Positions 44,639 to 64,000 of a stretch of DNA of 64,000 nt are shown here, piece after piece (within the stretch, counting starts at the first letter, position 1; every line of letters begins with the position of its first letter). The DNA is taken from assembly GCF_013466605.1 (NCBI RefSeq), contig NZ_CP059162.1, positions 3,968,001 to 4,032,000 on the forward strand, read 5' to 3'. The notes under the pieces are model-generated. The model searched no databases. It was not told the DNA's origin and saw nothing but the letters and a program-made list of their open reading frames with translations. Origin of the DNA: Pseudomonas chlororaphis subsp. aurantiaca (lineage in GTDB: Bacteria > Pseudomonadota > Gammaproteobacteria > Pseudomonadales > Pseudomonadaceae). A program made the position numbers and the translations under genes.

Positions 44639-45616
44639 CTATTCAAACCATTCGCTGCGCTCATTGAAGGTGCGCAGGATCAGCTCCACCAGCATCCTCA
44701 CCTCGGCGTCGTGCTCCATTTCGGCGTTCACCGCCATCCACACCTGGCGCGGCATGGCCTCGTCGAACAGCCCGGGCAGTGCCGTCAGGCCGCGGTCGAA
44801 GCGGCTCATGTAATGGGGCAACAGGCCGATGCAGGCGCTGCAACGGATCATCTCCAGCATCAGCGCGTAGGAATGCACCTGCACCACTCCCGCCAGGCGC
44901 TGCTCCACCAGCTGGTTCCACGGCCGCAGCGGTTCGACCTGACGGTCCTGCTGCCACTGCACCAGCATGTAGTCGGCCAGGTCGTCCAGGCTGTCGGGGC
45001 GCGCCGCGACCCGCGAATAACGCTTGGCGATATGCGGCAGGTAGTCCAGGCGCACCAGCGGCTGCGGCGGGCTGGTGACGAAACTCGGCCCCGGTGCCGG
45101 CGAATCCACCCCGCCCAGCCACACCACCACGTCGGCGCTCAGGGCCCGCAGCGACAGCTCGCTGTCGATGGAGATGATCTCCAGGCGCACGCTGGCGTTG
45201 CGCCGCAACAGGGAAATCAGGTCACGGCCGAGGATATCGTGCAGGATCGACTCGGCCACCGCCAGGCGCAGCAGCGGCTGTTCGAGCACCGGCAGCGTGC
45301 GTTCGTGGGCCAGGGCGATCAGTTGCGCCTTGAGTTGCTGGCCTTCGCGGCTGAGGCTCAGGGCGCTGCCCTGGAAGCTGAACAAGGAGCGGCGCAACTG
45401 TGCCTCCAGGTGCGCCAGCTGTTTGCGCAGCAGCGTCGACTTGATGTTCAGGCTGCGCGCCGCCTGCATGAAGCAGCCGCAACGGGCGGTGACCAGGAAA
45501 TACTGGGCCAGCTCCGGCTCGATCCCGGCGGCCAGGGCCAGCCAGGCTTCCCGGGGTTCGGCCGGAGCGATGTAGGGTGTGATGCCCGAGATCGGGGCGG
45601 GTTCCAGAAAGGACAT
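44639..45616 (-). CDS. LysR-type regulator at the end of the two-partner secretion locus
   Basis: 325 residues. The HTH region starts only at about residue 35 (LAQYFLVTARCGCFMQAARS, LNIKSTLLRKQLAHLEAQL), leaving a Pro-rich N-terminal extension unusual for LysR proteins. The effector domain follows (LRLAVAESILHDILG, VHSYALMLEMIRCSACIG). AGGGAG six bases before the ATG at 45616 fixes the start. It lies downstream of and in the same direction as the prolyl isomerase gene, in the place of PA0701 in P. aeruginosa, so it may regulate the locus. Confidence 0.88.
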   Translation of the reverse strand: MSFLEPAPISGITPYIAPAEPREAWLALAAGIEPELAQYFLVTARCGCFMQAARSLNIKSTLLRKQLAHLEAQLRRSLFSFQGSALSLSREGQQLKAQLIALAHERTLPVLEQPLLRLAVAESILHDILGRDLISLLRRNASVRLEIISIDSELSLRALSADVVVWLGGVDSPAPGPSFVTSPPQPLVRLDYLPHIAKRYSRVAARPDSLDDLADYMLVQWQQDRQVEPLRPWNQLVEQRLAGVVQVHSYALMLEMIRCSACIGLLPHYMSRFDRGLTALPGLFDEAMPRQVWMAVNAEMEHDAEVRMLVELILRTFNERSEWFE

Positions 45617-45717
45617 GGGTGACTCCCTGTCGTGTGGGTGATGGCATCCATTGCACGTTGTCATAGCGGGTCGGACGGCTGCGCCGTCCGATAGCGGTAT
45701 CAACCACGCCGCCGTAC

Positions 45718-46671
45718 TTACAGCTTCTCCTCCAGCACCTTGTTCAACTGCGCGCCGTCGATACTCAGGGTCGCCGTGTCGAGCATGCCTTCCAGATAGG
45801 CCTTGGCGATCTGCTCCTGGCGCTGGGCCCGCAGGGCCTGGGTCAGGCGTTCGCGCAACTCGTCCAGGGTCGCGGTGCGGGCCGGTTGCTGCTCGGTCAG
45901 CTTGAGCACATGAAAACCCGCCGCGCTCTGCACCACATCGGACACCGCGCCGACCTTCAGGCGCGCCACCGCGCCGCGGACCTCGGGCAGCAGTTGCTGC
46001 AACGGCTGCAAACCCGAGTCGCCGCCGCGCCGGGCACTGTCGGGTTCCTGGGAATACTGGCTGGCCAGGGCGGCGAATTCGCCCGGGGCGGCCTGGGCCT
46101 TCTTGCTCAGTTCCTGGGCCTGCTTGCGTGTTGCTTCCAGCGCTTGCGGGTCACTCACCGCGAGGAAGATCTGGCTGACCCGGTACAAGGCCGGGGTCTG
46201 CCACTGCGCCTTGCCCGCGTCGTAGGCCTGCTGCAACTCGGCCTCGCTCGGGTAACCGGCCGGCACCTGGCTGACCGAGCGCAAGTAGTCGCGAAAGACG
46301 ATCTGCTCGGTGGCCACCCGGGTCTGCAAGGCCACGTCCGGACGCTGGCGCCAGCCCTGGGCATCGGCCTGTTCGAGCACGGCCTTTTCCGCCAGGCGGG
46401 TGCGAATCCAGTTTTCCAGGGCCGGGCGATTGCCCCGCAGCTGCTCGCGGGACGGCTCGGGCAACGCCGCGAACAGCGCCTTGAGCTCCTCCGGCGCCAC
46501 CCGCTGGTTACCCAGGCGCGCCACCGCCGGGCTGTCGTCGACCGGGCTGGCGGCCATCGGCCTGGGCTGTTGCGCCGCCACCGGGTCGCTGCCCGGGCGC
46601 ACGCCCAGCCACACCGCCAATGCCACCAGGGCCAGGGCTCCGACACCGACCATCAGGCTTGGCTTCTTCAC
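45718..46671 (-). CDS. PpiC-type peptidylprolyl isomerase
   Basis: 317 residues, anchored by an N-terminal helix (LMVGVGALALVALAVWLGV) with the rest periplasmic. A SurA-like N-domain precedes a parvulin domain: RVSQIFLAVSDPQAL, then FAALASQYSQEPDSARRGGDSG and VVQSAAGFHVLKLTEQ. It resembles EpsD-type isomerases and probably helps fold the large secreted TpsA or the TpsB/porin barrels. Its ATG overlaps the stop of the YbjN-like gene (ATGA), which places it in the operon. Confidence 0.92.
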   Translation of the reverse strand: MKKPSLMVGVGALALVALAVWLGVRPGSDPVAAQQPRPMAASPVDDSPAVARLGNQRVAPEELKALFAALPEPSREQLRGNRPALENWIRTRLAEKAVLEQADAQGWRQRPDVALQTRVATEQIVFRDYLRSVSQVPAGYPSEAELQQAYDAGKAQWQTPALYRVSQIFLAVSDPQALEATRKQAQELSKKAQAAPGEFAALASQYSQEPDSARRGGDSGLQPLQQLLPEVRGAVARLKVGAVSDVVQSAAGFHVLKLTEQQPARTATLDELRERLTQALRAQRQEQIAKAYLEGMLDTATLSIDGAQLNKVLEEKL

Positions 46672-47162
46672 TGCGCAGGCACCTCGGCGGCCTCGGGCGT
46701 TGTTTCAGGCGCATCGGCCTGGGCCTGCAGGCGCGCGGCGTGCTGGCTGTAGTCGCGCAGGTAGACGATGAATTCCTGCAACAGCCGGTCCCAGAGTTCC
46801 AGCTGGCTGCGCAGGTGATCGTGGCTGACCCCGGCCACCACCACGTCCATTTCCATCACCAGGAACTCGCCCTGCACCGACAGCCGGGCAAAGCGCCGCG
46901 AGGCGTTCCACAACTCGGCCAGGCCCGCCGGCAACTCGCCCTGGACCCGCAGCGCGCAGCTGAAGGTGAAGTCCACATAGCTGCCCTGTCCGGCACCCGC
47001 CGCGTTGCCGAAGCGCACAGCGTAGCCGATGCCCTGGCTCGCGCTGAGCAGTTGCACGATGCCGTTCTGGTCGGTCTGGTTGACCCGGTAGCCGGCGCCT
47101 TGCAGCAGTTCGGTGAGGCTCTGCGGGGTGACGCTGGCGATCAGTTGCGTTGCTTCAGTCAT
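46668..47162 (-). CDS. YbjN-like (T3S-chaperone-fold) protein
   Basis: 164 residues. The core, LIASVTPQSLTELLQGAGYRV to FLVMEMDVVVAGVSHDHLRSQLELW (in parts), fits the YbjN family, whose fold resembles type III secretion chaperones. A Gln/Ala/Pro-rich tail ends the protein. No signal peptide is seen, so it is cytoplasmic. The ATG at 47162 follows GGGAAGA. It sits 20 bp after the coiled-coil gene and overlaps the isomerase gene by 4 bp. A chaperone role in the secretion system is plausible but unproven. Confidence 0.8.
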   Translation of the reverse strand: MTEATQLIASVTPQSLTELLQGAGYRVNQTDQNGIVQLLSASQGIGYAVRFGNAAGAGQGSYVDFTFSCALRVQGELPAGLAELWNASRRFARLSVQGEFLVMEMDVVVAGVSHDHLRSQLELWDRLLQEFIVYLRDYSQHAARLQAQADAPETTPEAAEVPAQ

Positions 47163-47182
47163 GCTCGATTCTTCCCTGATGT

Positions 47183-47857
47183 TCAGTGGGTACTCGCTGC
47201 CTGGGGGGCATCGAACTGGGTCTTGTACAGGTCGTCGCCAAAGCCCTGGGCCAGTTCCTCGAACTTGACCCGGGCGCCGCCGGCGAAGGGCTGGCGGATT
47301 TTCATCACCTGCGCCACGTCGATCTTTTCGTAGGCCGCGAGGATCTCTTTGGCCACGCCATACATCTGCTGATTCTTGACCGAACATTGCTGCACTTGTG
47401 TGTCACGCTCGCTCAATTGCGCCTGCAGCCTGGCCCGCTCGGCCTCTTTGGCCCGTGCCATGACCAGCAGTTCGTCATAGGCCTTCTTGAACTTGCCGAT
47501 CTGCTCGCTGCTGGCGGCCATCTGCGCCTGGGCCTGGCTGTGCAGGTTCTGCTGCTGGCCGGCCAGTTGCTCGGCCACGCCGCGGGCCTTGGCCAGGTCG
47601 GCGGTCAGTTGCTTGATCTGCGCCTGCGCCTGCTTGGCCTGGTTCTCGGCGGCGACCCGGGCGGCGCTGGCCTGGGCCTGTTCGCTCTGCAGCGCCTGCA
47701 ACTGCTGGGTGGTGCTGCGCAACTGGGTGCGCAGGCGCTCCTCCATGCCTTCGGCGCTGGCCCCGCTGGCCAGCAGCACGCCCAGGGTCAACAACAGGCA
47801 GCGCCCTGCCCTGGCTCGCGTGTTCATCGCCGTGCTGTTCATAGCAAGACTGGTCAT
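47183..47857 (-). CDS. Periplasmic coiled-coil protein of the secretion operon
   Basis: 224 residues. A signal peptide (CLLLTLGVLLASGASAEG, cleavage near residue 36) leads to a long Gln/Ala-rich coiled coil: LRSTTQQLQALQSEQAQAS through QAQAQIKQLTADLAKARG and ERARLQAQLSERDTQVQQC. A short conserved C-terminal part contains YEKIDVAQVMKIRQPF. Such proteins are often auto-named DNA repair proteins because of SMC-like composition, but the signal peptide argues against that. It lies 18 bp after the porin gene and probably acts in the periplasm. Confidence 0.82.
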   Translation of the reverse strand: MTSLAMNSTAMNTRARAGRCLLLTLGVLLASGASAEGMEERLRTQLRSTTQQLQALQSEQAQASAARVAAENQAKQAQAQIKQLTADLAKARGVAEQLAGQQQNLHSQAQAQMAASSEQIGKFKKAYDELLVMARAKEAERARLQAQLSERDTQVQQCSVKNQQMYGVAKEILAAYEKIDVAQVMKIRQPFAGGARVKFEELAQGFGDDLYKTQFDAPQAASTH

Positions 47858-47875
47858 GACAGTGCCCCTTGCGCC

Positions 47876-49570
47876 CTAGAAGCGCGTGTTGATTTCAAGC
47901 TGCAAGACATCGATGTCGAACGGCGCGCCGTACACCGCCTCGGAGCTCAGCCAGCGGCCGGTGGCGAAGACGTTCTTGGCCAGGCCGTAGTTGCCGCCGA
48001 GGAAGTAACCCTTGGCGTTGGTGCCGCCGAGGTGGAACGAGGAATCGTTGAAGCCGTCAGGCAGCGCATCGGGCTGGATGTACTTGTAGCCGGCGAACAG
48101 GTTCCAGTCGCCCTGCTTGGCCAGCTCCAGGCTGTTGCCCAGGGTGAACTGCACCATCCAGGCGTTGGCGCCGCTTTCCAGCTCGCCGTTGCTGTCCAGG
48201 TTGTTGACGATCTGGCCTTCGGAGCGCTTGCGCATCTCGCCTTCGTCGTAGCCCAGGTTGTGGATGTAGTTGGCCTGGCTGCGCAGCTTGAAGTTCTCCG
48301 GCAGGTCGGCGTCCCACACCAGGTTCAGGTCCAGCAGGTTGAACTCCGAGGCCAGGCCGACGAACTGCGGCTGCGCGGTGGCGGCCGGGTTGAGCGGGTT
48401 GGGCGTGATGTCGCGCAGCAGGAACACGCTGTTACCCTTCTGCATGAAGGCCACGCGGCTGCCGTCGCTGTCGCAGCCCGGCGCCCCGGCCCAGGGTTCG
48501 CAGGCACTGGAGCGCTGGCCTTCGATGTCGTCGAAGCGGTAGTAGGCCAATGCGCCCTTGAGCCGGTGGTTGCCGTTGATCGCCCAGTTGGCGCCGATCT
48601 GCGCGCCGTACAGCCATTTGTTGTCGCTTTCTTCCTTGTCGAAGCCGTTGCTGGTGGAGGTGTCGTTGGTGTACTCCACCGGGAACGCGCCGACCGTGCC
48701 GAACAGGCCCCAGTCACGATTGAGCTTGTGGTTGAAGATCGCCGCCACACCGTCGAAATTCAGGTCGTTGGAATACAGCAGGTCGGTGGAGAAGAACGGG
48801 TTGGCGATCCGCCCGCCGGTCAGGGTCAGCTCGTCGGTGGCCTTCCAGGTCAGGTAGCCCTGGTCGAGCCAGATGTCCTTCTTGCCGAACCCGCCGCCCA
48901 GGGTCTGGGTGGTGGACACCGGGTTGTTGTCCGAGCCGGTGCCGATGCGGATGCCGGCGGTCCAGTCCTCGGCGACCTGCGCCTTCATGCCCAGCCGGGC
49001 GCGCAGGCGGAACAGGTTCTCGCGGTCTTCGCGGGTGTTGAGCAAGGGCGGCAGGTTGGAGCTGCTGTTGGGGTTGACGTCGTACGGGCCCTTGTCGTTG
49101 AGCCTGGCGAAGTCGACGATCTCGTTGCTGTTGCTGCCCGAGTAGTAGCGCGACTCGTCGCGCAGGCGAATGTCGCCGTCGAAGCTGATGCGCGACACCC
49201 AGTCCGGGAAGGTGTTGGGCTGGGCCCAGTTTTCCTGCTTGGCGGTGGCCATGACCTCGGCCTTGACCTGGTCGCGGATCTGGTCGCGGACGATGGCCGG
49301 CACGTATTGCACCCGCACATCCCCCGGGGTCGCCGCCGGCCCTGCCGCCACCGCGGTGTTGGCCTGGCGCGCCTGCTGCGCTTCGCGCTCGGCCTGGGCG
49401 ATCAGGCCGTCGGCCTGTTCCTGTTTCAGCACGCCCTGCTGCACCAGCAAACGGATCAGATTGATCGTGGCGTTTTCCGAGGGCGCAGCGGGCGCGGCCG
49501 CTACCGGTCCCACCAGGGTCGCGATGACCATGCCGATCGCCAGGGACAATCGATTCACGTTGGAAATCAT
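47876..49570 (-). CDS. Putative outer-membrane porin-like protein
   Basis: 564 residues. A signal peptide ends near GPVAAAPAA. An alpha-helical linker (LIRLLVQQGVLKQEQADGLI) follows, then a beta-barrel from about residue 130 (SRISFDGDIRLRDESRYY) to the final aromatic residue in VLQLEINTRF. It belongs to the group usually annotated putative porin. AAGGAG lies ten bases before the ATG at 49570. Its place in an ExbBD-TonB operon suggests a surface receptor or channel for the system, though it lacks a TonB-dependent plug domain. Confidence 0.87.
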   Translation of the reverse strand: MISNVNRLSLAIGMVIATLVGPVAAAPAAPSENATINLIRLLVQQGVLKQEQADGLIAQAEREAQQARQANTAVAAGPAATPGDVRVQYVPAIVRDQIRDQVKAEVMATAKQENWAQPNTFPDWVSRISFDGDIRLRDESRYYSGSNSNEIVDFARLNDKGPYDVNPNSSSNLPPLLNTREDRENLFRLRARLGMKAQVAEDWTAGIRIGTGSDNNPVSTTQTLGGGFGKKDIWLDQGYLTWKATDELTLTGGRIANPFFSTDLLYSNDLNFDGVAAIFNHKLNRDWGLFGTVGAFPVEYTNDTSTSNGFDKEESDNKWLYGAQIGANWAINGNHRLKGALAYYRFDDIEGQRSSACEPWAGAPGCDSDGSRVAFMQKGNSVFLLRDITPNPLNPAATAQPQFVGLASEFNLLDLNLVWDADLPENFKLRSQANYIHNLGYDEGEMRKRSEGQIVNNLDSNGELESGANAWMVQFTLGNSLELAKQGDWNLFAGYKYIQPDALPDGFNDSSFHLGGTNAKGYFLGGNYGLAKNVFATGRWLSSEAVYGAPFDIDVLQLEINTRF

Positions 49571-49613
49571 TTGCACACAGCTCCTTTTGGCAAAACTTGC
49601 ATCAATCGTTCGG

Positions 49614-50321
49614 TTAACCCGGACGCCGCCCCTGCAGGGACAGGCGTACAGGCAGGGTCAGGGAGGCCGGTGGCCGCTCCGTCAGGTGCGGCGCGCCGCG
49701 CAAGGCGGCCAGCACCAGGGTGTCGATCTGCGGGTTGCCGCTGGACTTGACCAGCTCGACCCGGGTGATCTCGCCGACGGCACTCAGCCAGACGTCGGTT
49801 TGCAGCGAAAAGGCCTGGTTGCGCAGGTCCGGGTTTTCCCGCAGCACGCGCTGGAAGGTGAAGGCCAGGAACTGGCTGTAGGTGCCGTTGCCCAGGCGCC
49901 CACCGCCGGAACCGGCCATGCCGCCACCCTTGCCGGCGCCGATGTTGAAGGCGTCGCTGCCGGCCTGGGCATCGCCATCCATCTGCATCGGATTGGCCAG
50001 GTCGTCCACCGGCGACGGCGGTGCTTCTTCCTCGGGCTTGACCTGTTCCGGCTCCGGGGTCGGTTCCGGTTCGGGCACCTTCTCCTCGACCGGCGGCTCC
50101 GGTTCCTTGGGTTTTTCCGGCGGCGGTGGCGGTGGTGGCGGCAACGGGATGATGGTCGGCACCTTGGGCGCCTCCCGGCGCACTCCGCTCATGTCGTTGG
50201 CCCACTGCCAGAGCAGCCAGGCAGCGCCAGCCCCCAGCAGCAGCCCCGCGCCCCACTTGAGCAGGCGTGGCGCCGTGCGGTTTTTCACTGGCGGCAGCTG
50301 GATAGGTTGTTGTGCGGTCAT
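49614..50321 (-). CDS. TonB-like energy transducer
   Basis: 235 residues with classic TonB layout: short cytoplasmic N-terminus, one membrane helix (LLKWGAGLLLGAGAAWLLWQW), a long Pro/Glu/Lys-rich spanner (IIPLPPPPPPPPEKPKEPEP) and a C-terminal TonB domain (QTDVWLSAVGEITRVELVKS, QIDTLVLAALRGAP). A Gly-rich insertion, FNIGAGKGGGMAGSGGGRLG, precedes the C-domain. It should couple the ExbBD proton channel to an outer-membrane partner. It starts 3 bp after exbD. Confidence 0.9.
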   Translation of the reverse strand: MTAQQPIQLPPVKNRTAPRLLKWGAGLLLGAGAAWLLWQWANDMSGVRREAPKVPTIIPLPPPPPPPPEKPKEPEPPVEEKVPEPEPTPEPEQVKPEEEAPPSPVDDLANPMQMDGDAQAGSDAFNIGAGKGGGMAGSGGGRLGNGTYSQFLAFTFQRVLRENPDLRNQAFSLQTDVWLSAVGEITRVELVKSSGNPQIDTLVLAALRGAPHLTERPPASLTLPVRLSLQGRRPG

Positions 50322-50324
50322 GGG

Positions 50325-50750
50325 TCAGCCCTGGCTCGGTTTGCCGGTGACCAGGCCGACCTGGGACAGCTCCAGCCGGCGCAGCAGGTCCAGGACCTCG
50401 ATGACCTTCTGGTACTGCACCGTGGCGTCGCCGCGCACGATCACCGGGAAGTCCGGGTTCAGGGCCTTTTCCATGCGCAGGCGTTCTTCCAGCTCCGCCA
50501 GGGTCACCGGGTAGGCGTCGAGGAACACCTGGCCGCCGTCGTTGACCGAGATCGCCTTGGTCTTGGCCTCGGACAGCGACACCGAGGCGCTGGCCTTGGG
50601 CAGGTTGATCTGGATCCCGGAGACCTGGGCGGTAGCGGTGAGGATGAACATCACCAGCACCACCATCAGCACGTCCACCAGGGGCGTGATGTTGATGCTG
50701 TCCACCGCTGCGTCGTCATCGTCGTCGTGGGAGGCGTTCACAGAAGCCAT
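50325..50750 (-). CDS. exbD: Biopolymer transport protein ExbD
   Basis: 141 residues. One membrane helix carries the proton-path aspartate: DSINITPLVDVLMVVLVMF, Asp26. The periplasmic domain ends in DATVQYQKVIEVLDLLRRL. The N-terminus has an unusual run of five aspartates (HDDDDDAAVD). GGAGAAACGTC before the ATG is a good ribosome site. It lies 11 bp after the ExbB-fusion gene and 3 bp before the TonB gene, forming a dedicated energising module. Confidence 0.95.
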   Translation of the reverse strand: MASVNASHDDDDDAAVDSINITPLVDVLMVVLVMFILTATAQVSGIQINLPKASASVSLSEAKTKAISVNDGGQVFLDAYPVTLAELEERLRMEKALNPDFPVIVRGDATVQYQKVIEVLDLLRRLELSQVGLVTGKPSQG

Positions 50751-50761
50751 GACGTTTCTCC

Positions 50762-52599: not shown

Positions 52600-54261
52600 T
52601 CAAAACGTCGCCTGCACACTGAAGTGCACGCGCGAGTCCTGTTTCTGGGTGTTCGGTCCATCAAGCAGCGGGTAACCCCAGTCCAGGCTGCCGGAAAGCC
52701 ATTTGCTCAAGCTGGCGCGGGTGCCCAGGCCGACGCTGGCCAGGCTGTAGTCGGCCTCCTGGTCGGGAAGCTCGTCGCGCAGGTACATCCGGGCGCCTTC
52801 GGCGAAGGCATAGAAGCGCCATTCGTTGACATACCCGCCCAGGTACTTGGCCAGGGACGGCGTGCGCAGCTCCTGGGAAAACAGGTAGCCGTCGTCACTG
52901 GTGCGCTCGGCCGCCAGGTAGCCGCGCACCGAGGTGGCGCCGCCGGCGGAGAACTGCTCGTTGGACACCAGCGGCCCCGAGGCCAGCTGGAACGCGGCCT
53001 TGGATGCGCTCTGCCAGTCGTTGGCAAAGGTGTAGGTGTAATTCAGGTCGCCCTTGAGCACGGCGAAGCTGGGGTTGGCGCGGTAGCGCTTGTAGTCGAA
53101 GTCCTCGTCCGAACTGCCGTAGCCGAACAGGCTGCGGGTGCCGGCCACCAGGCTCAGGCCGAGGCCCAGCTGGGAGGTCTCGGTGTAGCGAAAGCCGTTG
53201 TAGGCGAAGGTGAACGGCGCGTACTTGAGCGGCACCTTGTCGCTTTCGCCGCCCAGGCTCAGCTCTTCCTCGAAGTCCTTGAAATCCACCCCGACCGAGA
53301 ACGAGTTGGCCCAGCTGCCGCTGGCCGGCAGGCTGTAGATCAGCGACAGACCATAGGAATGGCCCTTGCCCAGCACGTTGCTGCCGCCGATGGTGGCGAC
53401 GTTGCTGTCGGACTTGTAGCCGGCGAACTGCAGGCTCCAGCGCTCGTTCAGCGGCGCGGTATAGGAACCGGACCAGACCTTGGCGTTGTCCTGGTCCTCG
53501 GGCGCGGTGAAATAGGTCAGGGAAATGCTGTGGCCCAGCTGCCAGAGGTTGTTGTAGCCCAGGCTAGTGACCGCCCGCAGGTGCTTGGTGTCGGCGCTGT
53601 AGTCGTTGTTCAGGCCGACGCTGGCCTGCCACGGGTTCTGGTCTTCCACCTGCAAGTCGACGTCCATGGTGCCGGGGCGCCGGCCTTCGCGGACCAGCGG
53701 CATGACCTGGCGCCCGGGAGTCTTGTTCAGGCTCGCCAGCTGGCCCTGGACCTTGGCGAAATCCGGTACCTCGCCTTCCTGCAGCGCCGGTACCTCGTCG
53801 CGGATTTCCACCGGCGAATAGTGCTTGGCCCCCACCACCCGCACCCGCCCGACCTTGGTCTCGCTGACCTGCAGGTAGACGATGCCGTCCTCGACCTTCT
53901 GCTCCGGCAGCTCGACGAACACCGACTGATAACCGCGGGCCTGGTAGACCTTCTGCAAGGCGTCGCGGGCGCCCTCGATATCGCTCAGGGCCTTCTGCGG
54001 GCCAAGGAAGGGATACACCGCCTCTTCGATGGCCCGCGCATCGAGCACGGTGTTGCCGCGCACGAAGTACTCATTCACATCCACCAGCCGTGCAGGCGCG
54101 GCCTCGCCTTGCGCCGCACTGCCCTGCACCGGCTCGCCTTCCACCGGGCCGCCCTCCTCGGCCAACAACGGCTGGCTCAGCGCGACCAGCGCCAGCCAGC
54201 CGCACACCGGCAGCCAGCGCCTGGTCGGCCCCGGCCGCCCCCTATCGAACAGATGCTCCAC
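52600..54261 (-). CDS. pdtB: Two-partner secretion transporter TpsB (ShlB/FhaC family)
   Basis: 553 residues from the GTG at 54261. A signal peptide (RRWLPVCGWLALVALSQPLLA) is followed by a POTRA_2 domain (VNEYFVRGNTVLDARAIEE, GYQSVFVELPEQKVEDGIVY). A 16-strand Omp85-type barrel contains the conserved loop-6 motif SVRGYLAAE and ends in HFSVQATF. It should secrete the large TpsA encoded nearby. The GTG has AGGGGG four bases upstream. An in-frame TTG at 54339 overlapping the phdA stop is the alternative and would add 26 residues. By order and content it corresponds to PdtB (PA0692). Confidence 0.9.
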   Translation of the reverse strand: MEHLFDRGRPGPTRRWLPVCGWLALVALSQPLLAEEGGPVEGEPVQGSAAQGEAAPARLVDVNEYFVRGNTVLDARAIEEAVYPFLGPQKALSDIEGARDALQKVYQARGYQSVFVELPEQKVEDGIVYLQVSETKVGRVRVVGAKHYSPVEIRDEVPALQEGEVPDFAKVQGQLASLNKTPGRQVMPLVREGRRPGTMDVDLQVEDQNPWQASVGLNNDYSADTKHLRAVTSLGYNNLWQLGHSISLTYFTAPEDQDNAKVWSGSYTAPLNERWSLQFAGYKSDSNVATIGGSNVLGKGHSYGLSLIYSLPASGSWANSFSVGVDFKDFEEELSLGGESDKVPLKYAPFTFAYNGFRYTETSQLGLGLSLVAGTRSLFGYGSSDEDFDYKRYRANPSFAVLKGDLNYTYTFANDWQSASKAAFQLASGPLVSNEQFSAGGATSVRGYLAAERTSDDGYLFSQELRTPSLAKYLGGYVNEWRFYAFAEGARMYLRDELPDQEADYSLASVGLGTRASLSKWLSGSLDWGYPLLDGPNTQKQDSRVHFSVQATF

Positions 54262-54335
54262 ACCGCCCCCTAGATTTCCAAGAATGTCGAACCGCGTCGA
54301 AACCGCCGTCGCCGTCTGTACGGCGTTTGGCCGGT

Positions 54336-54947
54336 TCAATTGCTCAAGGTCGATGTCGTGGCGTGCTTGGCCAGCCAGCTGTGCAGCAGCGCGAAGTTCA
54401 ACGAGAACTCGGGCATTTGCAGCAAGGCGCCACAGAACACTTCACCGATGATTTTCTGGATCAGCAGCACCGCCCGCGCATCGTTCAACAGCGTGGCGAT
54501 GTCGCGGCTCAGCACGCCGAGGCTCCAGACCTTCTGGTTCAGGTCCAGGCCGACGAACCAGCGAAACAGCAGGTTGTAATTGAGCTGCTCGTACAACTGC
54601 TGCTCGCCGGGCACCGAATACAGCAGCTGCAACAGCAGGATGTGCATCACCGTGCGTGGGGCGATGAGCATGCCGGGCTCGCTGTCCAGGCCCTGGAGAA
54701 TGTCGCGGTGCTGGTCGAGCAAGGCGTCGATCTGCGGACGCAGCAACACCAGCGAATGGCCCGGCGGGATGTAGCTCGACACCTCCTTCAAGGCGCCCTG
54801 CCAGTCATCCTGGGAAACGATCCAGACCCACGGCGCACCGTAGCGATAGACTGACACCGGCTTCTTGCGCGCGGCCTCGACGATCTTCGACAACCGCTGG
54901 TCCAGCTCCTGCATGCCCACTTTCGCGTAGCGTTCCATAGTCCCCAT
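54336..54947 (-). CDS. phdA: Phd-like/transposase-like hybrid protein (PhdA-type)
   Basis: About 203 residues. The first 60 (ERYAKVGMQELDQRLSKIV, PVSVYRYGAPWVWIVSQDDW) look like a Phd/YefM antitoxin DNA-binding fold. The rest resembles the N-terminal helical domain of IS5-type transposases (QLYEQLNYNLLFRWFVGLD, NQKVWSLGVLSRDI). No toxin gene adjoins. Its place between TpsA and TpsB genes matches P. aeruginosa PA0691 (phdA), linked there to DNA release in biofilms under BfmR (from memory). The ATG at 54947 has GGGAG seven bases upstream; the ATG at 54938 is possible. Confidence 0.8.
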   Translation of the reverse strand: MGTMERYAKVGMQELDQRLSKIVEAARKKPVSVYRYGAPWVWIVSQDDWQGALKEVSSYIPPGHSLVLLRPQIDALLDQHRDILQGLDSEPGMLIAPRTVMHILLLQLLYSVPGEQQLYEQLNYNLLFRWFVGLDLNQKVWSLGVLSRDIATLLNDARAVLLIQKIIGEVFCGALLQMPEFSLNFALLHSWLAKHATTSTLSN

Positions 54948-55230
54948 AACCTCACTCCCGGCGTCCCGCCTCGGCTCAGAACAGTGGCCAGAAGGCCCCC
55001 TCAAGCGCGTCACATATCCATGACGGGACTGGCTAAGTGCTACCGAACTTTTGTCACAAAAGCTTCACTCGGAAGAGGGAGAGACTTGTCCGCGATGCCC
55101 GGGAACACCTGCGCACCCGGTTCGGAAATACGGGATGGCGGCTTGCAGGAACGACGGAGGAATCGGTGAGACAGCCCGTAGAAGAGCGGGCTGGAAAAGA
55201 CTGGGGACCTGCGTTCATCTGAAAGCTGAT

Positions 55231-55601: not shown

Positions 55602-55708
55602 CCCTGTAGCCGCTGCCGCAGGCTGCGATCGGCCGAATGGCCGTGACGTTTTCAAGACCGCTGAAGGTCCTTCGGACCTTATCGCAGCCTGCGGCAGCGG
55701 CTACAGGG
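55602..55708. repeat. REP inverted pair, perfect 28-bp arms
   Basis: CCCTGTAGCCGCTGCCGCAG begins the left arm at 55602-55629, and the right arm at 55681-55708 is its perfect 28-bp reverse complement. It is the best-preserved copy in the window and lies between the lipoprotein stop and phdA. Confidence 0.92.
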
Positions 55709-56588: not shown

Positions 56589-56611
56589 GAGGCTTGGTAC
56601 CACGAGAGAAC

Positions 56612-59600
56612 CTATAAGGTCAGTTGCCGCCGCTCCTCCTCGGTCAACTGCTGCCGCGCCTGATCGCTCAGCGGCCCGGCGCCCAGCACCTGCACCGGGC
56701 TGTCCGGGTTGTAACCGGGGTTGGACCGGCTGGCGCCATCCTGGGTCGGCGCCAGGCGTTCCTGGCCGAAACTCAGCACCTGCACGCTAAACACCGACGG
56801 CATGTTCTGCCGCGCCGCCGCCTGCTGCTGACGCGCCACATCTTCCGCGGCCTGGGTCGCCGAAGACGCCGCCGAACTGGCCGACGTCAGGGCCCCGGTA
56901 TTGACCGACGCCACCACCGGAATCCCCGAGGACTTGCCCTGGGTCTGGATGTTTGCCGCGTTGACTACCTGCAAGGCGAAGATGTTGACGTTACCCGAGA
57001 CCCGGATCCCCGCCTCGCCGGCATCGATGGTGCCCAATGGCGCCAGCAGGTCGATATCCCCGGCAGGCACCTCGGCAATCGGTGCCAGGGTGGCGATCCC
57101 CGCCCCCGAGCTCGGCACGTTCGACGACAGCGTGACGTTGCCCCAGTTGTCGTAGACCCGCTTGGGCGGCGTATAGATCACGGTGGTCTTGGAACCACGC
57201 CCGGCGTTGATGTCGCCAGCGTTCGACCAGCCGAGGATCGATCCGCCAAAGGTGGTCATGACCCGGCTCTGCCCCAACAGGATGCTGCCTTGGGAGTACA
57301 ACTGGATATCGCCGGCGCCCTGGGTGATGACCCCGGCACTGGCCGGTGGCGCCTCGCCTTCGATGCCGAATACCTGTTGCCCACCCGGGGTCAGCATCTG
57401 GATATCGCCACCAAACAGGGTGTGTACGCCCGCACCGCCGTACAGGGTTATGTCGCCGTCGTAAACGATCGGGTTGCCCGCCACATCGGCGGCTGGCAGC
57501 AAGGAGGCGATCGCATTGCGACTGCGCAGGAAGCTGCCGAAACGCGGGCCGTTGGCATCGTTGTACTCGCGGCCGCCCCCACGCAGTTCCTCGAAGTAGA
57601 CACGACGGGCGAAGACCCGCTGCTGCTCCGCCGGCAAGCCGGCAAAGTAGCCCCGCGCCTCGTCGCCGGAACCCTCGAAGGCAAAGCGCTCCTTGAGCCA
57701 CTTCAACATTTCGGTTTCATAGGTCTTGGCGACTTTGCCCCGTTGCTCGGCCAGCGGCACGCCGGCCTGAGCCTGATTGATCGGGTCCAGGTAGGGCGTG
57801 ACGAACTTCAGATAATCCAGGCCCGCGGCCCCGACACCGGCCTGCATGACGATGCTGGCGCCAGGCCGCGAGTCGCCGGCCACCACCGGACCGAGACTGC
57901 TCACCGAGGCCTTGTCCTGCATCAGGATATTGCGGCCGGCGCTGATCTCCAGCGTGCCGGGGCCGGCGACGTTGAAGGAGCTGAACAGCAGGTCGCGTCC
58001 GGCGGAAACGATGGAGATATCGCCGGGGTTGTTATGGACAAACAGGTTGCCGCTGCTGGTGCCACCACCGGAGGACATTATATTCCCCTGGGAACTGGAG
58101 ATGATGCTAGGCATCTCTGTCAGCATGCCCAGCGTCGTTCCCGAGTTGACGATATCGCGACCCGCCTTCATCCACACCGGCCCTGCAGCTTCGTACCAGG
58201 TTTGTCCAAGCCGTGAACCGGAGGTGAAATTCAATATTTCGCCACTGCGCAACCCGACTATGTCCCCGCCAACCGCATAAAAGCGCGCCGCGTCACTGCT
58301 GGCGAACTGACTGTTGGCGGTATTGGCACCAAAGGCGAACAACGAAAACTCGGCCTTGGTGTTCGGGATCGTAATGCCGTCGCTGCTCAGATTAGTCACT
58401 ATGGGGGCGATGTCCGTACCCCAGCCTGCAAAGGCCGGCGCGAAAGGCGTGGGCATCGCGCTCAGAGAAGCTCCAGACTGGTTGATGGCATACCCGCCGG
58501 CATAAATCGAATCCCCGGCCAGCACGTCCAGGCGACCATGGGTCGACGGCGCCAACAGCAACGAGTACTGCTGGTTGTTACTCGCGCCCCCCAACGCCGA
58601 GCCGCCGATGAACACATCGCCACTGGCGGCAATTGCGCTCAATTGCGAAGGGAAGATGAATCGGCCATCGGTCGGCGAGCTGTTGCGGTTGCCAATAGGT
58701 TGACCGTTATTGTTTATATCAATATCACCGACCTGCACACTTGGGGTCAGATTGCCACCCGCCGAAAACAGGTTGATCGCAGTGCGATCGGTCCACAGCG
58801 AAAACCAGCCATAGCCCCCCGTTCCATAAGAAGTACCGTCATAGGTGAATGCCGAGGCGTTTTCAGTAGAAGTCCGCCCTGGGTCGCCCGTACCGGCCAG
58901 CACCAGGTCGCCACGGGTGGCCAGGCTGGCCGTGGCGTCGCCGAGCATCAACACCATACCCCCTGTGGCGGTGCCCAGAGAAGCGTTGAACGGATCGTAG
59001 GCACGGGTCTCCTTGCTGTCGTTAAACAGAGCGAGACTGCCATAGTTCAAGGCAATCCCCCCCAGACTCGAGGCTTGCAGGTCGAGCGCGCCACGCAGGT
59101 TGCTCAAGACCCCGTTCAGACGCAGATCCTGCTGGGTGTAGTCGGTGGATACAGGATTGGCAACCGATGTATTAGTGGCGGCCCGAGCCGATAATCCAGG
59201 GTTCAGATCACCACCGACGCGCACATCCAGATCGCCACCGCCGGTCAGCAGCAGCTCTCCTGTCGGGGTCACCCGACCGCTGCTGCCCACCGCCAACACC
59301 AACCCCTGGCTGCGTGGCGAGGGGGTCGCGTTCGGAGCGCCACGACGGCTGAGCAAACCGGCATCACGACCCACGTCCAGGGTCAGATTGCCGCCGCCCA
59401 AGGTGCCAATACCGGTAAAGCCCACCAGTATTGGCAGCTGCGCAATCAGGCTGCTATCGGGATTACCGGTATTCACTACTCCGCGACCACTCACATAAGT
59501 GCCGAAGTTGATCCACCAACTGGCCGGAATCGGCGTAACCCCGGCCGTATCGCCCGTCCCCTGGCGCCAAAGCCAATTGCCCAGGTTGGAGCTGGCCAAT

Positions 59601-62600
59601 TGAGCGCGGGCGTTTTCCTTACGGGGTTCGGTGTAGTTGCTGAACACATCACCCGTCAGACTGCCACCGCTGCGCAGTAACAGGTTGCCACCCTGATCCG
59701 GGTACCAGGCCGCATACAGACTACCCGGGGCCTCGTTGACCAGGGTTTCGTAAGCGGCCGCCGCACTGCCCAGCACACTGTCATCGCTGCCACGACTACG
59801 CGGCTGATCGAAAGCGCCCTGCAGATCACCGGCTCGTGCAGCGGTCGAAGCCCCGGCGGTATAGACCCCATACGACGACTGCATGGCCACATTGCCTGCG
59901 GCCAGCAGGTCCAGGTCCCCGGTACCGGTGCGCAGTACGCTGAAGTTCTGGGTGACCGGTACCACCTTGTTCACCGGACCGACGATGACTTGCTCCGGCG
60001 TGCCGGGAATGGCCTCGCCCAGTGAGGTACACAGGCCTTCGGCACACCAGGATTCATATTCCGCCAGAACCGGTGCCCCCTCGACAAAGCTAGGGTCGAT
60101 CAATACCCCAAGGTCGTTCCACACATAGTTGAAGCGATTGCACATACCTTCGGCGCACCAGGACTCATCCGCCGGCGCAACACGCGTACCCTCAACGAAA
60201 CTCGGGTCGATCAACACCCCCAGTTCATTCCAGAACCAGGCACCTGCCGGACGCTCCGGGGTCCCCGGAATAATGATGGTCTCGTGCCCCTCGAGGACCG
60301 CGTAATGGGTGTCGGCCAGGGTCAGGTCGCCGGCCATCACCGGTTTGATCGCCCGGGTGTCGGCGGCCTGGGTATCGGCCCCCGAAACCAGGCGCATCGA
60401 CCAGGACAACGAGCCCTCCGGCAACAATGAAGCGACGGCCCAATTGCTGCCCTGGCGCCCGCCGGTCACCGTGCGCAGTGGCACCGAAATCACCCCGGAC
60501 GGCAACTTGATATCGGTTTCCGACGGGATCAAGGCCCCCACCTTGAGCGCCAGCGAGCCGGCCAGTTGTACGCCGTCCGGGTTGTTCGGGCCAACGCTGT
60601 CGCGGCTTGGCAGAGGCACCCCGGCCGGCCAGGTCATGGCGCCCAGCGAGGCCGCCGCGGGCAGCCGTGTGCCAGCGTCCAGAGTCGTGCCGCTGGCCAG
60701 GGTCACGGCTTCGCGGATCAGGGTACCGGCGGCATACACCTGATTGCCGGCACTGTCGCGCACGGCCGCTTGCAGTACCGTACCGGCCGGCAGTTCCAGC
60801 GGTGCCTGCAGGGTCGCCTCGACCGGCAGCAAGGTGCCCTGCGCCAGGCGCACCGGCTTGATCGGCAATGCATAGTTGAGGGTCTTGCCGGCCGGGAACA
60901 GGCTACCATCGGCCAGCGTCACACCCGGCCCCGGCACCACCACGTCGCCACCAAAGGCCTGACGACCAGGGGTCAACACCCAGCCGGCATCGTCCGGGGT
61001 CGGCGGTGGTGGCGCAAAACCGTCGTTGATGCTGCCGTAGATGTCCAGGTTGCCCCCGGCGCGAATCACCAGGTTGCCCGGCTCGCCCGAGCCATACACC
61101 GAGGTTTTCTGCGCATGGGGATTGACGCTGGTATAGCGATAACCGGAGAGGTCCAGGTCACCGCTGATCACCAGATCGCCCTGGGTGACGATCTCCAGCC
61201 CCGGGCGCAGGTGAAAGGCGTCGGCATAGGTGGCGTTGTTCAAACCGGCCAGCTTGCCGTTCATCAAGCCGGTATTGCTCAAGGCATTGTCGATAAAGCG
61301 CTGGCTGTCCTGATGCTTGGCGTCCAGGTAGGCCTGGTCGATCACCTGGTACGGCCGACCGCTGGCGGCCGGCGCCGTGCCCTCGGGGGCATCGGTGTAG
61401 CGGGCGGTGCCGTTTACTGCGATGGAGCGAGCACCCAGGATGTTCAGCCGGCCACTGGCATCAATGGCGATATCGCCCAGGGTCGGGTCGCTGGCATCCA
61501 GGCGCGGGGCATTGAGCTCCAGTGTCCCGCGGGCCTGGCCGTCGTACTGGCCAGGCGCCGTACCGGCAACGACCGAGGTGCCGTGGCGCAGGTCGATGCC
61601 TGCGCCGTCGGCCAGGGTCAGTTGACCAAGGCCGGAGTTGAGTTCGACCACCGCACGGTTCGGCGAATCGATGATCTTGCCGTAGCTGTCGACCCGCAGG
61701 GCCGTGCCATGGGTATCGAGCAAGGCACTGCCGGCCAGGGTCAGGCCCTGGCTGGCAGCGAGGCGAATGCTGCCGACCCGCTCACCGCTGGCATCGATGG
61801 TACCCAGCACCGTCAACTGGCCGTTATCCACGGAAACGTTGACTTCGCCGGCCTTGAGTTCGCTGCCGATCGTCAGGTCGCCGCGCTTGATCTGGAAGCT
61901 GCGGGCGCCGAACACCTGGCCCTGGTTGAGACGCTGGTTGAGCGCAGCGAAATCCCCCAGGGTCTGCGCGCGGATATCGACACTGCCAGCCTTGTAAGGC
62001 ACCAGGGTACCGCCGGCGTCGTAATGCCCCGAACTGGCACCGAGCAGTTGGCCTTGCAGGTCCACCTGACCGCCGCCCTCGCCCACGGCCAGCACTTTCA
62101 GATTGCCGCCGTGGTTGTTCTGCGCCGACAGATCGATCAACGACCCAGCCGCCTGGCGGATATCACCCTCGCGGCTTTGCAGGATCACATCGCCGCCCCA
62201 ACTGTATTGGCTGACTTCGTTGAACATGACCTGGCGCCCGGCCAGGTCGAGATGGGCGCGGTCGGTCAGGTTCAACCCATGCTCGGCATTGACCGTCAGC
62301 TTGCCGCTGGGCAGGGCCACGGCGCTGTCCAGTTCGACGTTGTCGCCGGCCAGCAACACTTCAGCGCCAAGGCTGTCGATAACCGGCAACACCGCCTGCT
62401 GGCCCGGTGCGCGACTCAGCCGCAGGTCCCCCCCCGCCGTGATGCGGTTGACCGAACCCGCCTCGCCGGTCAGCAACGGCGTGCTGATATTCAGGTTGCC
62501 GCCGCTGTAGGCGAAGCCCTTGCCGGCTTCATAGGCACCCTGGGACTGATAGACCGCCAGGCTGCCCTTATGGTTGGCGGTCAGGCGTTCGCTGGCACTG

Positions 62601-64000
62601 AGGTTGACGTTGGCAAAGCCCAGGGCCAGGCGTGCGTAGTCGGCCAAAGGATCGGGCTGAGTGTTGGGGCCATAGCCGAATTCGATGCGCCGGGCCTGGA
62701 TCTCCAGGGTGCCGCTGCCGGTGCCGGCACCGTTGGCGATCACCGCAGCGGGCGTACCGGCTACCCCGTTCCAGATCAGGTTACCGGTCTGGATCAGCGC
62801 CACATCGCCGGCCACGCCGTCGCCGTAGATCGCCGGGGTACTGAGCATCAGGTTGTCCAGCATCGACTGGCCGTTGCTGTCCAGGGTGCTCAAGGTGGTG
62901 CTGCCGTAGAAATTCAATGACTGGCCGGCGGTCAACGACAGGGTTTCCAGGGCCGGCGCCCCACTCGCGATATCGCCGCGTAGCAAGCGGTTCATGACGT
63001 CCTGGTTGAGGGTCAGTCCCGACGGCAGTGCATTGCGCGCCTGGGCGGCGGCCAGGGCTTCTGGACTGCCAACATTGATTCCGCCGACCGCCAGAGTCAG
63101 ATGGCGGGTGCCATAACGCACCGCATCACCCAGCCTGAAGGTGTTGGTGGTGGCGAAGGCAATGGTGCCTTGGGAGTACAGCGTGGTTTCGCCCTGGCAG
63201 GCAGCCTGTACACAGTCACCGATCAAGATGCTGCCAGGTCCTCGGCCCGCATCGCCCTCGGTTGGCGCGAGCATTTGCAGTACGCCATTGGAGACGGCCA
63301 GCACGCTGCGAAGTCCGGGTTGGTAGATGAAACCATCGGTGGAATCATAGGCCGCGTCGCCACGGCCCAGGGTGTTGATCGATGCGCCCTGCTCGATTTG
63401 AATCGCGCCTCTGGGCTGGCCGGAAACGAGGAACACTTCAGGGGCCGACAAGGTCACGCCCTGGCGCAACGTCACCGACTCGGCGGCACGGTTCGCGTCG
63501 AAGCCAACAAAATTGCCACCCTGGCCATACACCACGGTCGGCGCTCCGCCAATGCTCATGCGGGCTGTACCAATGGCGTTCAGATCATCGGCATGGAACG
63601 ACACCCCGTTGCCGCTGGCTTTGGCCCCGGCAGGCAGAATCTCGATCGCGCTGCCGCTCGCCCCGGACATCACCTCCAGACTCGCGCCAAAACCACCTTC
63701 GGCCACTGCCGAACGAGCCATCCCGGCGAACTCGAAGCTGCTGGGAGAACCGCTCTGGCCGGCGATCAGGCTGACCCGCAAGGTTTTGCCATCGGCCTCC
63801 AACGCTGCGCGAGGCACGCCCTGGCGCGCGGCATCGCTGCGGACAAAATCGGCATACGGGGTTTCGTTGTACTGCGAGTAACCGCGCAGCACCGCGGCCG
63901 GGGTCAGGATCACCTGACGGGTCAAGGCATCCTGAATCCCGGTCTGGGCAATGGACAGCCGGCCCGCGCTGGACCAGGAACCGTTGCTCATGACCGTGCC
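56612..64000 (-). CDS. pdtA: Giant haemagglutinin-like TpsA exoprotein, N-terminus beyond window
   Basis: At least 2460 residues, open to the right edge. The N-terminal TPS secretion domain (with NPNL-type motifs) is not in the window, so the protein is longer. The visible part is a long beta-helix of filamentous-haemagglutinin type with recurring AGGNLNI/GDIDL-like rungs (ASGDVFIGGSALGG, GNLVIRAGGNLDIYG). The C-terminal portion matches DUF3739 (AGDIDLLAPLGTIDAGEAG, MPSVFSVQVLSFGQERLAP). Two tandem 37-residue units with a WCAEGxC cysteine pair lie near 60030-60240. It should be exported by the TpsB encoded at 52.6-54.3 kb and act as a surface or released adhesin. In P. aeruginosa the counterpart PdtA is induced by phosphate limitation; the promoter is outside this window. 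Confidence 0.93.
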   Translation of the reverse strand, partial: GTVMSNGSWSSAGRLSIAQTGIQDALTRQVILTPAAVLRGYSQYNETPYADFVRSDAARQGVPRAALEADGKTLRVSLIAGQSGSPSSFEFAGMARSAVAEGGFGASLEVMSGASGSAIEILPAGAKASGNGVSFHADDLNAIGTARMSIGGAPTVVYGQGGNFVGFDANRAAESVTLRQGVTLSAPEVFLVSGQPRGAIQIEQGASINTLGRGDAAYDSTDGFIYQPGLRSVLAVSNGVLQMLAPTEGDAGRGPGSILIGDCVQAACQGETTLYSQGTIAFATTNTFRLGDAVRYGTRHLTLAVGGINVGSPEALAAAQARNALPSGLTLNQDVMNRLLRGDIASGAPALETLSLTAGQSLNFYGSTTLSTLDSNGQSMLDNLMLSTPAIYGDGVAGDVALIQTGNLIWNGVAGTPAAVIANGAGTGSGTLEIQARRIEFGYGPNTQPDPLADYARLALGFANVNLSASERLTANHKGSLAVYQSQGAYEAGKGFAYSGGNLNISTPLLTGEAGSVNRITAGGDLRLSRAPGQQAVLPVIDSLGAEVLLAGDNVELDSAVALPSGKLTVNAEHGLNLTDRAHLDLAGRQVMFNEVSQYSWGGDVILQSREGDIRQAAGSLIDLSAQNNHGGNLKVLAVGEGGGQVDLQGQLLGASSGHYDAGGTLVPYKAGSVDIRAQTLGDFAALNQRLNQGQVFGARSFQIKRGDLTIGSELKAGEVNVSVDNGQLTVLGTIDASGERVGSIRLAASQGLTLAGSALLDTHGTALRVDSYGKIIDSPNRAVVELNSGLGQLTLADGAGIDLRHGTSVVAGTAPGQYDGQARGTLELNAPRLDASDPTLGDIAIDASGRLNILGARSIAVNGTARYTDAPEGTAPAASGRPYQVIDQAYLDAKHQDSQRFIDNALSNTGLMNGKLAGLNNATYADAFHLRPGLEIVTQGDLVISGDLDLSGYRYTSVNPHAQKTSVYGSGEPGNLVIRAGGNLDIYGSINDGFAPPPPTPDDAGWVLTPGRQAFGGDVVVPGPGVTLADGSLFPAGKTLNYALPIKPVRLAQGTLLPVEATLQAPLELPAGTVLQAAVRDSAGNQVYAAGTLIREAVTLASGTTLDAGTRLPAAASLGAMTWPAGVPLPSRDSVGPNNPDGVQLAGSLALKVGALIPSETDIKLPSGVISVPLRTVTGGRQGSNWAVASLLPEGSLSWSMRLVSGADTQAADTRAIKPVMAGDLTLADTHYAVLEGHETIIIPGTPERPAGAWFWNELGVLIDPSFVEGTRVAPADESWCAEGMCNRFNYVWNDLGVLIDPSFVEGAPVLAEYESWCAEGLCTSLGEAIPGTPEQVIVGPVNKVVPVTQNFSVLRTGTGDLDLLAAGNVAMQSSYGVYTAGASTAARAGDLQGAFDQPRSRGSDDSVLGSAAAAYETLVNEAPGSLYAAWYPDQGGNLLLRSGGSLTGDVFSNYTEPRKENARAQLASSNLGNWLWRQGTGDTAGVTPIPASWWINFGTYVSGRGVVNTGNPDSSLIAQLPILVGFTGIGTLGGGNLTLDVGRDAGLLSRRGAPNATPSPRSQGLVLAVGSSGRVTPTGELLLTGGGDLDVRVGGDLNPGLSARAATNTSVANPVSTDYTQQDLRLNGVLSNLRGALDLQASSLGGIALNYGSLALFNDSKETRAYDPFNASLGTATGGMVLMLGDATASLATRGDLVLAGTGDPGRTSTENASAFTYDGTSYGTGGYGWFSLWTDRTAINLFSAGGNLTPSVQVGDIDINNNGQPIGNRNSSPTDGRFIFPSQLSAIAASGDVFIGGSALGGASNNQQYSLLLAPSTHGRLDVLAGDSIYAGGYAINQSGASLSAMPTPFAPAFAGWGTDIAPIVTNLSSDGITIPNTKAEFSLFAFGANTANSQFASSDAARFYAVGGDIVGLRSGEILNFTSGSRLGQTWYEAAGPVWMKAGRDIVNSGTTLGMLTEMPSIISSSQGNIMSSGGGTSSGNLFVHNNPGDISIVSAGRDLLFSSFNVAGPGTLEISAGRNILMQDKASVSSLGPVVAGDSRPGASIVMQAGVGAAGLDYLKFVTPYLDPINQAQAGVPLAEQRGKVAKTYETEMLKWLKERFAFEGSGDEARGYFAGLPAEQQRVFARRVYFEELRGGGREYNDANGPRFGSFLRSRNAIASLLPAADVAGNPIVYDGDITLYGGAGVHTLFGGDIQMLTPGGQQVFGIEGEAPPASAGVITQGAGDIQLYSQGSILLGQSRVMTTFGGSILGWSNAGDINAGRGSKTTVIYTPPKRVYDNWGNVTLSSNVPSSGAGIATLAPIAEVPAGDIDLLAPLGTIDAGEAGIRVSGNVNIFALQVVNAANIQTQGKSSGIPVVASVNTGALTSASSAASSATQAAEDVARQQQAAARQNMPSVFSVQVLSFGQERLAPTQDGASRSNPGYNPDSPVQVLGAGPLSDQARQQLTEEERRQLTL
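60030..60240 (-). repeat. Tandem 111-bp (37-residue) repeat inside TpsA
   Basis: Two units share LGVLIDPSFVEG and ESWCAEGxC at an exact 37-residue period. The DNA copies have diverged at third positions, so the duplication is old and maintained. Each unit has two Cys four residues apart, rare in such adhesins. Confidence 0.85.

Follow-up and report, generated by a model that had tools for sequence, protein, structure and literature searches.

FhaB/FhaC, HMW and CdiA/CdiB are the classical examples of two-partner secretion (TPS). In this work we examined a TPS locus of Pseudomonas chlororaphis subsp. aurantiaca which lies in a 64,000-nucleotide stretch of contig NZ_CP059162.1 (the window, whose whole length is meant throughout) and which carries, besides genes for the exported protein TpsA and its transporter TpsB, genes for a TolQR/ExbBD-type proton motor, a TonB-like arm and an outer-membrane barrel of the Porin_5 family. 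Judged by gene content and order, the locus is the counterpart of PA0690-PA0701 of P. aeruginosa PAO1 (pdtA/PUMA3, the sigma-VreI regulon): the order pdtA, phdA, pdtB, exbB2, exbD2, tonB4, porin, PA0697, YbjN, PpiC, LysR recurs at the locus, and the original prediction, made from the DNA letters alone, had named this likeness correctly, as the same genes stand in the same order in PMC7035377 (this and the other papers are cited from excerpts). The locus itself has thus been published; what is new here is that the motor is restricted to one subclass of TpsA, marked by the domain DUF3739 near its C-terminus, rather than attached to TPS generally, and that by gene presence across the sampled genomes this pairing is near-strict.

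In PAO1, PA0690-PA0701 is under phosphate and sigma-VreI control (PMC2729926, PMC7035377, PMC4971064, PMC9769906), with one promoter for pdtA and another for phdA-PA0701 (PMC4971064), and homologues of the TPS, exbBD and PA0696 genes accompany the PUMA3 cluster in several other bacteria (PMC2729926). The exbB2-exbD2-tonB4 genes are described as a putative TonB system that is "still uncharacterized" (PMC7035377), which bears out the earlier statement that the role of the energy genes had not been worked out, and in PMC5422565 type V secretion is said to draw on no electrochemical gradient, in line with the premise that classical TPS needs no further energy source. Our literature searches returned nothing on DUF3739 and, among the papers listed and judged by titles and the beginnings of abstracts, no study of the exbB2-exbD2-tonB4 motor, and neither the strictness of the motor-TPS association nor its link to DUF3739 and the TpsA tail was found in the excerpts searched.

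Domain content was compared across 299 Pseudomonadota genomes (180 genera), 199 Pseudomonas genomes and 200 Burkholderiaceae genomes, with few genomes shared among the samples (e.g., G000, G127, G210, and G270). A TPS domain was found in 111 of the 299 Pseudomonadota genomes. DUF3739 occurred in only 11 (9 of the 180 genera), all among these 111, and DUF2341, the domain fused to the channel subunit of the motor, occurred in 10, all of which were DUF3739 genomes. Full-length Porin_5 was present in exactly the same 11 genomes as DUF3739, a count which leaves out partial matches in five genomes (G198, G232, G256, G290, and G145), all devoid of DUF3739 and DUF2341. In the eleventh DUF3739 genome (G230), ExbB, TonB and Porin_5 genes share a contig of 3.8 kb that ends inside the fusion. 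Fisher tests on the co-occurrence gave P = 8e-18 and 3e-20, under an assumption of independent genomes that does not hold. DUF3739 and DUF2341 were found in the identical 65 of 199 Pseudomonas genomes, and in 38 and 37, respectively, of the 200 Burkholderiaceae genomes. The single discordant genome (G677) has no DUF2341 match and carries its DUF3739 stretch (G677:C1:1072176-1072451) in a 170-residue frame with an internal stop; from this reading frame the gene appears to be broken. Four other TPS-domain loci of the P. chlororaphis genome showed nothing resembling the ExbB, ExbD, TonB or Porin_5 of the window within 13-18 kb. A motor that is a general companion of TPS was ruled out, as DUF3739 and full-length Porin_5 are both missing from 100 of the 111 genomes with a TPS domain. 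TpsA and TpsB without energy genes of this kind, the pattern which the original prediction had named as speaking against itself, are therefore frequent for TPS as a whole and not for the DUF3739 subclass, with its near-perfect pairing.

Physical linkage alone is insufficient to account for this pairing, and was ruled out as its only cause. Whereas 24 of the 65 Pseudomonas DUF3739-DUF2341 pairs lie within 30 kb of each other, 22 of the 46 pairs on a common contig are 36 kb to 4.4 Mb apart, and a further 19 are on different contigs. Fusion loci numbered at least 581, and we compared the best 80 of them, all from Pseudomonas and some cut by contig ends; in these, TpsB was adjacent in 80, while ExbD was present in 79, TonB and Porin_5 in 78 each, the coiled-coil protein in 77, PpiC in 76, PhdA and LysR in 75 each, and YbjN in 61, with a TpsA end in the examined flank of only 31. 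The gene-order comparison proposed earlier for the ExbB fusion, TonB, porin and TpsB came out, in these Pseudomonas loci, as near-constant company for these four, TpsA being the partner that is often elsewhere. In three unlinked genomes (G330, G489, and G463) TpsB is encoded inside the motor operon and tpsA at another site, where PstS-like genes and genes for type II secretion are its neighbors, with no TpsB found from ~9-10 kb downstream to ~17-19 kb upstream of tpsA. Together with the 80 of 80 loci, this indicates that TpsB goes with the motor operon and that TpsA is the movable part.

The numbers of the two partners also differ. Burkholderiaceae gave 64 DUF3739 matches (38 genomes) vs. 37 DUF2341 matches, with up to six DUF3739 per DUF2341, and one genome of the phylum sample (G146) has two DUF2341 genes and three DUF3739 matches, two of which are fragments of the same gene. 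Of the 11 DUF3739 genomes of that sample, 10 showed a TpsB, and none was found in the G230 contigs examined; TpsB lies with Porin_5 on a different contig from the motor genes in G219 and upstream of TpsA in G019. In G019 a 733-residue open reading frame (ORF) had suggested a fusion of TonB with Porin_5; this was ruled out, since TonB is encoded separately, in a different frame.

The fusion was also found on 11 plasmids, five of which were examined. TpsB, motor, porin and TpsA stand together on pKqq_SB98_1 of Klebsiella quasipneumoniae and on the Methylosinus and Aquabacterium plasmids; the Cupriavidus plasmid has TpsB, motor and porin with no TpsA in the stretch examined, and the Methylomagnum plasmid has the motor genes and a TpsA ~16 kb away with neither TpsB nor Porin_5 in the stretch examined. 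DUF3739 was confirmed in all five TpsA ends tested, from four plasmids. The recurrence of the gene order in Pseudomonas, in distant Pseudomonadota and on plasmids places the gene set beyond chance. The copy on the conjugative pKqq_SB98_1 (L178) lacks phdA, has vreAIR-like genes and two DUF3739 TpsAs, and lies near insertion sequence (IS) elements and an arsenic-resistance cluster; the Aquabacterium copy has a tandem pair of exbD genes (L181:21643-22459).

The features of the locus in the window are as follows.

56612..64000, minus strand: C-terminal part of tpsA (pdtA-like); the full gene (L009:612-13310) encodes 4232 residues
55780..56421, minus strand: 213-residue ORF between tpsA and phdA, without Pfam or NCBIfam match
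55602..55708, no strand: 28-bp perfect inverted repeat with 51-bp spacer, resembling a repetitive extragenic palindrome, in the gap 5' of phdA
54336..55013, minus strand: PhdA-like protein, first operon gene, with a Phd/YefM-like stretch (below cut-off) and a DUF772 transposase domain
52600..54339, minus strand: tpsB (pdtB-like), with POTRA_2 and ShlB domains and a short pre-POTRA segment
50762..52603, minus strand: DUF2341-LamG-ExbB/TolQ fusion, from domain matches and a hydropathy scan
50325..50750, minus strand: ExbD/TolR-like protein, whose single hydrophobic segment contains ITPLVDVLMV
49614..50321, minus strand: TonB-like protein, proline-rich, with a glycine-rich QAGxDxFxIGxGxGGGM segment and a TonB_2 C-terminal domain
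47876..49576, minus strand: outer-membrane barrel of the Porin_5 family, full-length match (693.7 bits), with the conserved N-terminal segment VRVQYVPAIVRDQIRDQVKAEVMATAKQENWA
47183..47857, minus strand: coiled-coil protein, PA0697-like by position
46668..47168, minus strand: YbjN-like protein, PA0698-like
45718..46671, minus strand: PpiC-type peptidyl-prolyl isomerase, PA0699-like
44639..45703, minus strand: LysR-type regulator, PA0701-like

The ten minus-strand genes from the phdA-like gene to LysR (55013 down to 44639) follow one another with 4-bp overlaps or gaps of 3-37 bp, the spacing of a typical operon. The original prediction had placed all its genes in one direction with overlaps or small gaps; all those it named are present on the minus strand and tightly spaced from phdA to LysR, but TpsA stands apart, behind the 213-residue gene and a 766-bp gap between that gene and phdA, which houses the inverted repeat. 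Its list had missed the phdA-like gene, the 213-residue gene and the extension of tpsA, which starts ~5.3 kb outside the window, past position 64000, so that the window holds only part of the gene. The 213-residue ORF, whose N-terminus we read as lipoprotein-like, has a counterpart in 1 of the 80 Pseudomonas loci compared. The PhdA-like gene, found in 75 of these 80 and usually directly before TpsB, combines the weak Phd/YefM stretch with a DUF772 domain of IS5/IS1182-like type, and is perhaps a domesticated part of a transposase. The region upstream (5') of tpsA encodes a PstS-like protein, type II secretion proteins and regulators of the FecR and extracytoplasmic function (ECF) sigma types. 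The PBP-like (PstS-type) gene (L009:13520-14686) is immediately upstream, and a relative of it likewise adjoins TpsA, followed by type II secretion genes, in G127, G248, G094, G330, G489, and G463. No PhoB box was found near tpsA or phdA with a rigid consensus allowing at most three mismatches, which a looser box could escape.

The motor components were assigned by domain searches. Pfam PF01618 matches the ExbB part of the fusion with 94.3 bits and PF02472 matches ExbD with 102.5 bits, whereas NCBIfam places both subunits nearer to TolQ (152.5 bits) and TolR (91.7) than to ExbB (78.9) and ExbD (69.1/66.6/52.2), all of these scores being under the equivalog cut-offs (TolQ 152.5 vs. 221 bits, TolR 91.7 vs. 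127.3). Among PDB entries, TolQ chains come closest to the ExbB part. The TonB-like protein scores above the cut-off of Pfam TonB_2 (PF13103, 25.3 vs. 22 bits) and below that of TIGR01352 (24.9 vs. 27.1). The earlier naming as an ExbBD-TonB module therefore stands at the level of Pfam families, with a closer likeness to TolQ/TolR and a TonB outside the stricter family. A hydropathy scan of the fusion gave hydrophobic segments at residues 1-32 (signal-peptide-like), 368-404, 503-538 and 539-563; the ~335 residues between the signal-peptide-like start and the later segments contain DUF2341 and LamG, and this part is probably periplasmic. A glycine/threonine-rich channel stretch is invariant in all 11 aligned fusions, from ten genomes, and the aspartate in the ITPLVDVLMV of the ExbD-like protein is typical of proton-path subunits. 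In most aligned TonB-like proteins a glycine-rich QAGxDxFxIGxGxGGGM-like segment precedes the C-terminal domain. DUF2341 appendages on TolQ/ExbB-type motors have been mentioned, with function unknown, in an excerpt of PMC12505986.

TpsA has an N-terminal TPS domain (PF05860, 114.9 bits, residues 153-398) and DUF3739 (PF12545) at residues 4022-4132, beyond which it continues through an Ala-rich stretch into a tail that contains SVFSVQVLSFG and PVQVLGAG. In most TpsAs of the subclass DUF3739 is likewise followed by an Ala-rich stretch and a short motif (ISVQVLGFG, IIVEVLGFGG, VIVDVLGYAG, and IMVDVVGFG in others), often then by a second copy (PVQVLGAG) and LTEEER. Of two patterns drawn up only after inspection of the tails, one picked out 42 of 45 tails, with 0-2 further matches in each TpsA body, and the other matched 28 of 52 tails (0.08 expected from shuffles) and 14 of 19 non-redundant tails (0.044 expected). 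The five non-redundant tails missed comprise three with F or M first, including that of the window, and two divergent ones; none of the four other TpsA tails of the same genome matched the second pattern. As a sequence pattern the conservation of the tail is solid. In two Pseudomonas genomes (L177 of G331, and G429:C1:2231639) tpsA seems broken into shorter frames with the fusion gene present. TpsB has POTRA_2 (62.1 bits) and ShlB/FhaC barrel (75.8 bits) matches, and in the region before POTRA, the place of the pore-plugging N-terminal helix of TPS transporters, the module TpsBs show by eye only short Pro/Ala-rich segments, seemingly missing the longer pre-POTRA segment of three other TpsBs of the same genome.

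Taken together, the gene set, the near-strict and often unlinked pairing, the ratio of one fusion to one to six DUF3739 genes, and the subclass-specific end of TpsA suggest that the motor works on DUF3739-type TpsA. We put at about even the chance that these loci form a motorized subclass of TPS, whose TpsA is acted upon, in the course of its export or afterwards, by a TolQR/ExbBD-type motor that has a TonB-like arm. In such a scheme the proton channel, bearing DUF2341-LamG on its TolQ/ExbB subunit, would drive the TonB-like arm to the outer membrane, where the arm would act on TpsA (DUF3739 and conserved tail) while or after it passes the TpsB of the module. The step most likely concerned would be one in which the last part of the ~4000-residue TpsA remains in the periplasm, or goes back into it, and this end is pulled, freed or re-oriented by the motor, giving a gated or reversible surface display; Porin_5 might be a co-factor barrel, PpiC a periplasmic chaperone and YbjN possibly a cytoplasmic one. 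The contact point of the motor, and the choice among pulling, releasing and anchoring, are speculative. A more specific version, also speculative and in our judgment unlikely, would have the TonB arm grip the tail itself, with the [IVFM]xVxVL[GS][FYL]G strand as the TonB box of the substrate, so that the proton gradient holds, retracts or frees the 4000-residue fiber and one motor serves up to six fibers. To our knowledge no protein-export pathway with a TonB arm on the tail of the exported substrate has been described. The energized release, surface display or gating of the adhesin put forward in the original prediction may hold for this subclass; its observation is confirmed with the corrections above, and its interpretation is partly supported.

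Several points weigh against this reading. The placing of the motor on TpsA is inferred from gene content, and the co-occurrence is equally compatible with uptake and signaling. Genomes of one genus are not independent, and the 11 genomes of the phylum sample cover 9 genera. Insertion mutants in the tpsA, tpsB, tonB-homologue and PA0696 genes kept VreI-induced zebrafish lethality, with no single-gene effect (Llamas 2009, PMC2729926, in excerpt). The tail patterns, as stated, postdate the inspection of the tails. The tail motif resembles the TonB box of SusC-type receptors, but a TonB-box profile built from 15 heptamers, selected visually among 27 receptor stretches of this genome, failed to set the tail apart in the 13 DUF3739 TpsAs scored: similar or better scores occurred in every body, with tail motif 2 ranking 2-4 in four proteins and motif 1 ranking 2-3 in two. 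The tail as a TonB box is therefore not solid. AlphaFold models of Porin_5 and of the TpsA end (mean pLDDT, the predicted local distance difference test, 44 and 53) were too poor for use.

The same genes could serve uptake, with TpsA as a surface catcher, like HxuA of HxuCBA, and TonB energizing ligand import through Porin_5, e.g., of a phosphate source in phosphate starvation. The phosphate control of the P. aeruginosa regulon, the proximity of tpsA to PstS-like genes and genes for type II secretion, in this genome as in the three unlinked ones, the presence of full-length Porin_5 in the same 11 genomes as DUF3739, and the precedent of HxuCBA (PMC5422565, in excerpt) are all in keeping with this. 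The module porins moreover share an N-terminal VRVxYVPxxVRDQI segment, missing in the single module-free porin inspected (L050), which is an equal candidate with the TpsA tail for the TonB contact; a PDB sequence search with Porin_5 gave one match only, at E 0.32. However, none of the operon proteins scanned matched the plug domain PF07715 at E <= 0.01, with 27 plug matches elsewhere in the genome, and a TpsB gene inside the motor operon and several DUF3739 genes per fusion fit secretion at least as well. We consider uptake somewhat unlikely.

There are two further explanations. The TonB arm might report the secretion status of TpsA/TpsB to the VreA-VreR-VreI system which controls the locus, in agreement with the FecR-type and ECF sigma genes upstream in this genome and with the vreAIR-like genes that adjoin the module on the K. 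quasipneumoniae and Methylosinus plasmids, an association also made in PMC2729926 (in excerpt). A sensor, however, should have little use for a proton channel of its own that bears a lectin-like domain, and VreA reportedly does not seem involved in sigma-VreI activation (PMC7035377, in excerpt); we consider such signaling quite unlikely. Alternatively, motor, porin and TPS may have no direct link and be co-regulated for life under phosphate stress, or be inherited as one rarely lost gene group. They belong to the same regulon in P. aeruginosa, by the excerpts cited above, and, since members of one genus or family are related, the 65 and 37 joint occurrences do not count as independent; yet the pairing holds in the 22 unlinked same-contig pairs, on four plasmids with DUF3739 confirmed near the module and in distant lineages, while the module genes were not found within 13-18 kb at the other TPS loci of the P. 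chlororaphis genome, and we judge this explanation decidedly unlikely. Should the motor act on TpsA, the rule that TPS needs no outer-membrane energy source would be broken by a subclass almost never seen without a proton motor. DUF3739, DUF2341-ExbB and Porin_5 would then gain a shared role, and the role of exbB2-exbD2-tonB4 would become testable.

The closest described systems are the following. The P. aeruginosa PdtA/PdtB locus shares the gene order and likewise has type II secretion genes and FecR/ECF regulators upstream, whereas the 213-residue gene of the window is not in the PAO1 list excerpted from PMC7035377. In HxuCBA heme capture, too, the genes pair a TPS protein with an outer-membrane function that is linked to TonB (PMC5422565, in excerpt), although the window operon has its motor genes within it and no plug-domain receptor was found there. 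A proton motor and TonB have been implicated in protein export, as proposed here, for PopC and Oar of Myxococcus xanthus (PMC6434023, in excerpt), the one precedent among the papers cited; the exporter Oar is a plugged TonB-dependent receptor, whereas the outer-membrane proteins of the window are TpsB and Porin_5, with no plug detected. The Tol-Pal and Ton motors have the TolQ/ExbB and TolR/ExbD domains and the TonB_2 arm in common with the locus, whose channel subunit differs in bearing DUF2341-LamG. Classical TPS systems (FhaB/FhaC, HMW, and CdiA/CdiB) share the TPS domain and the POTRA/ShlB transporter; in contrast to them, the locus of the window combines these with a dedicated proton motor, a Porin_5 partner and a DUF3739 C-terminus.

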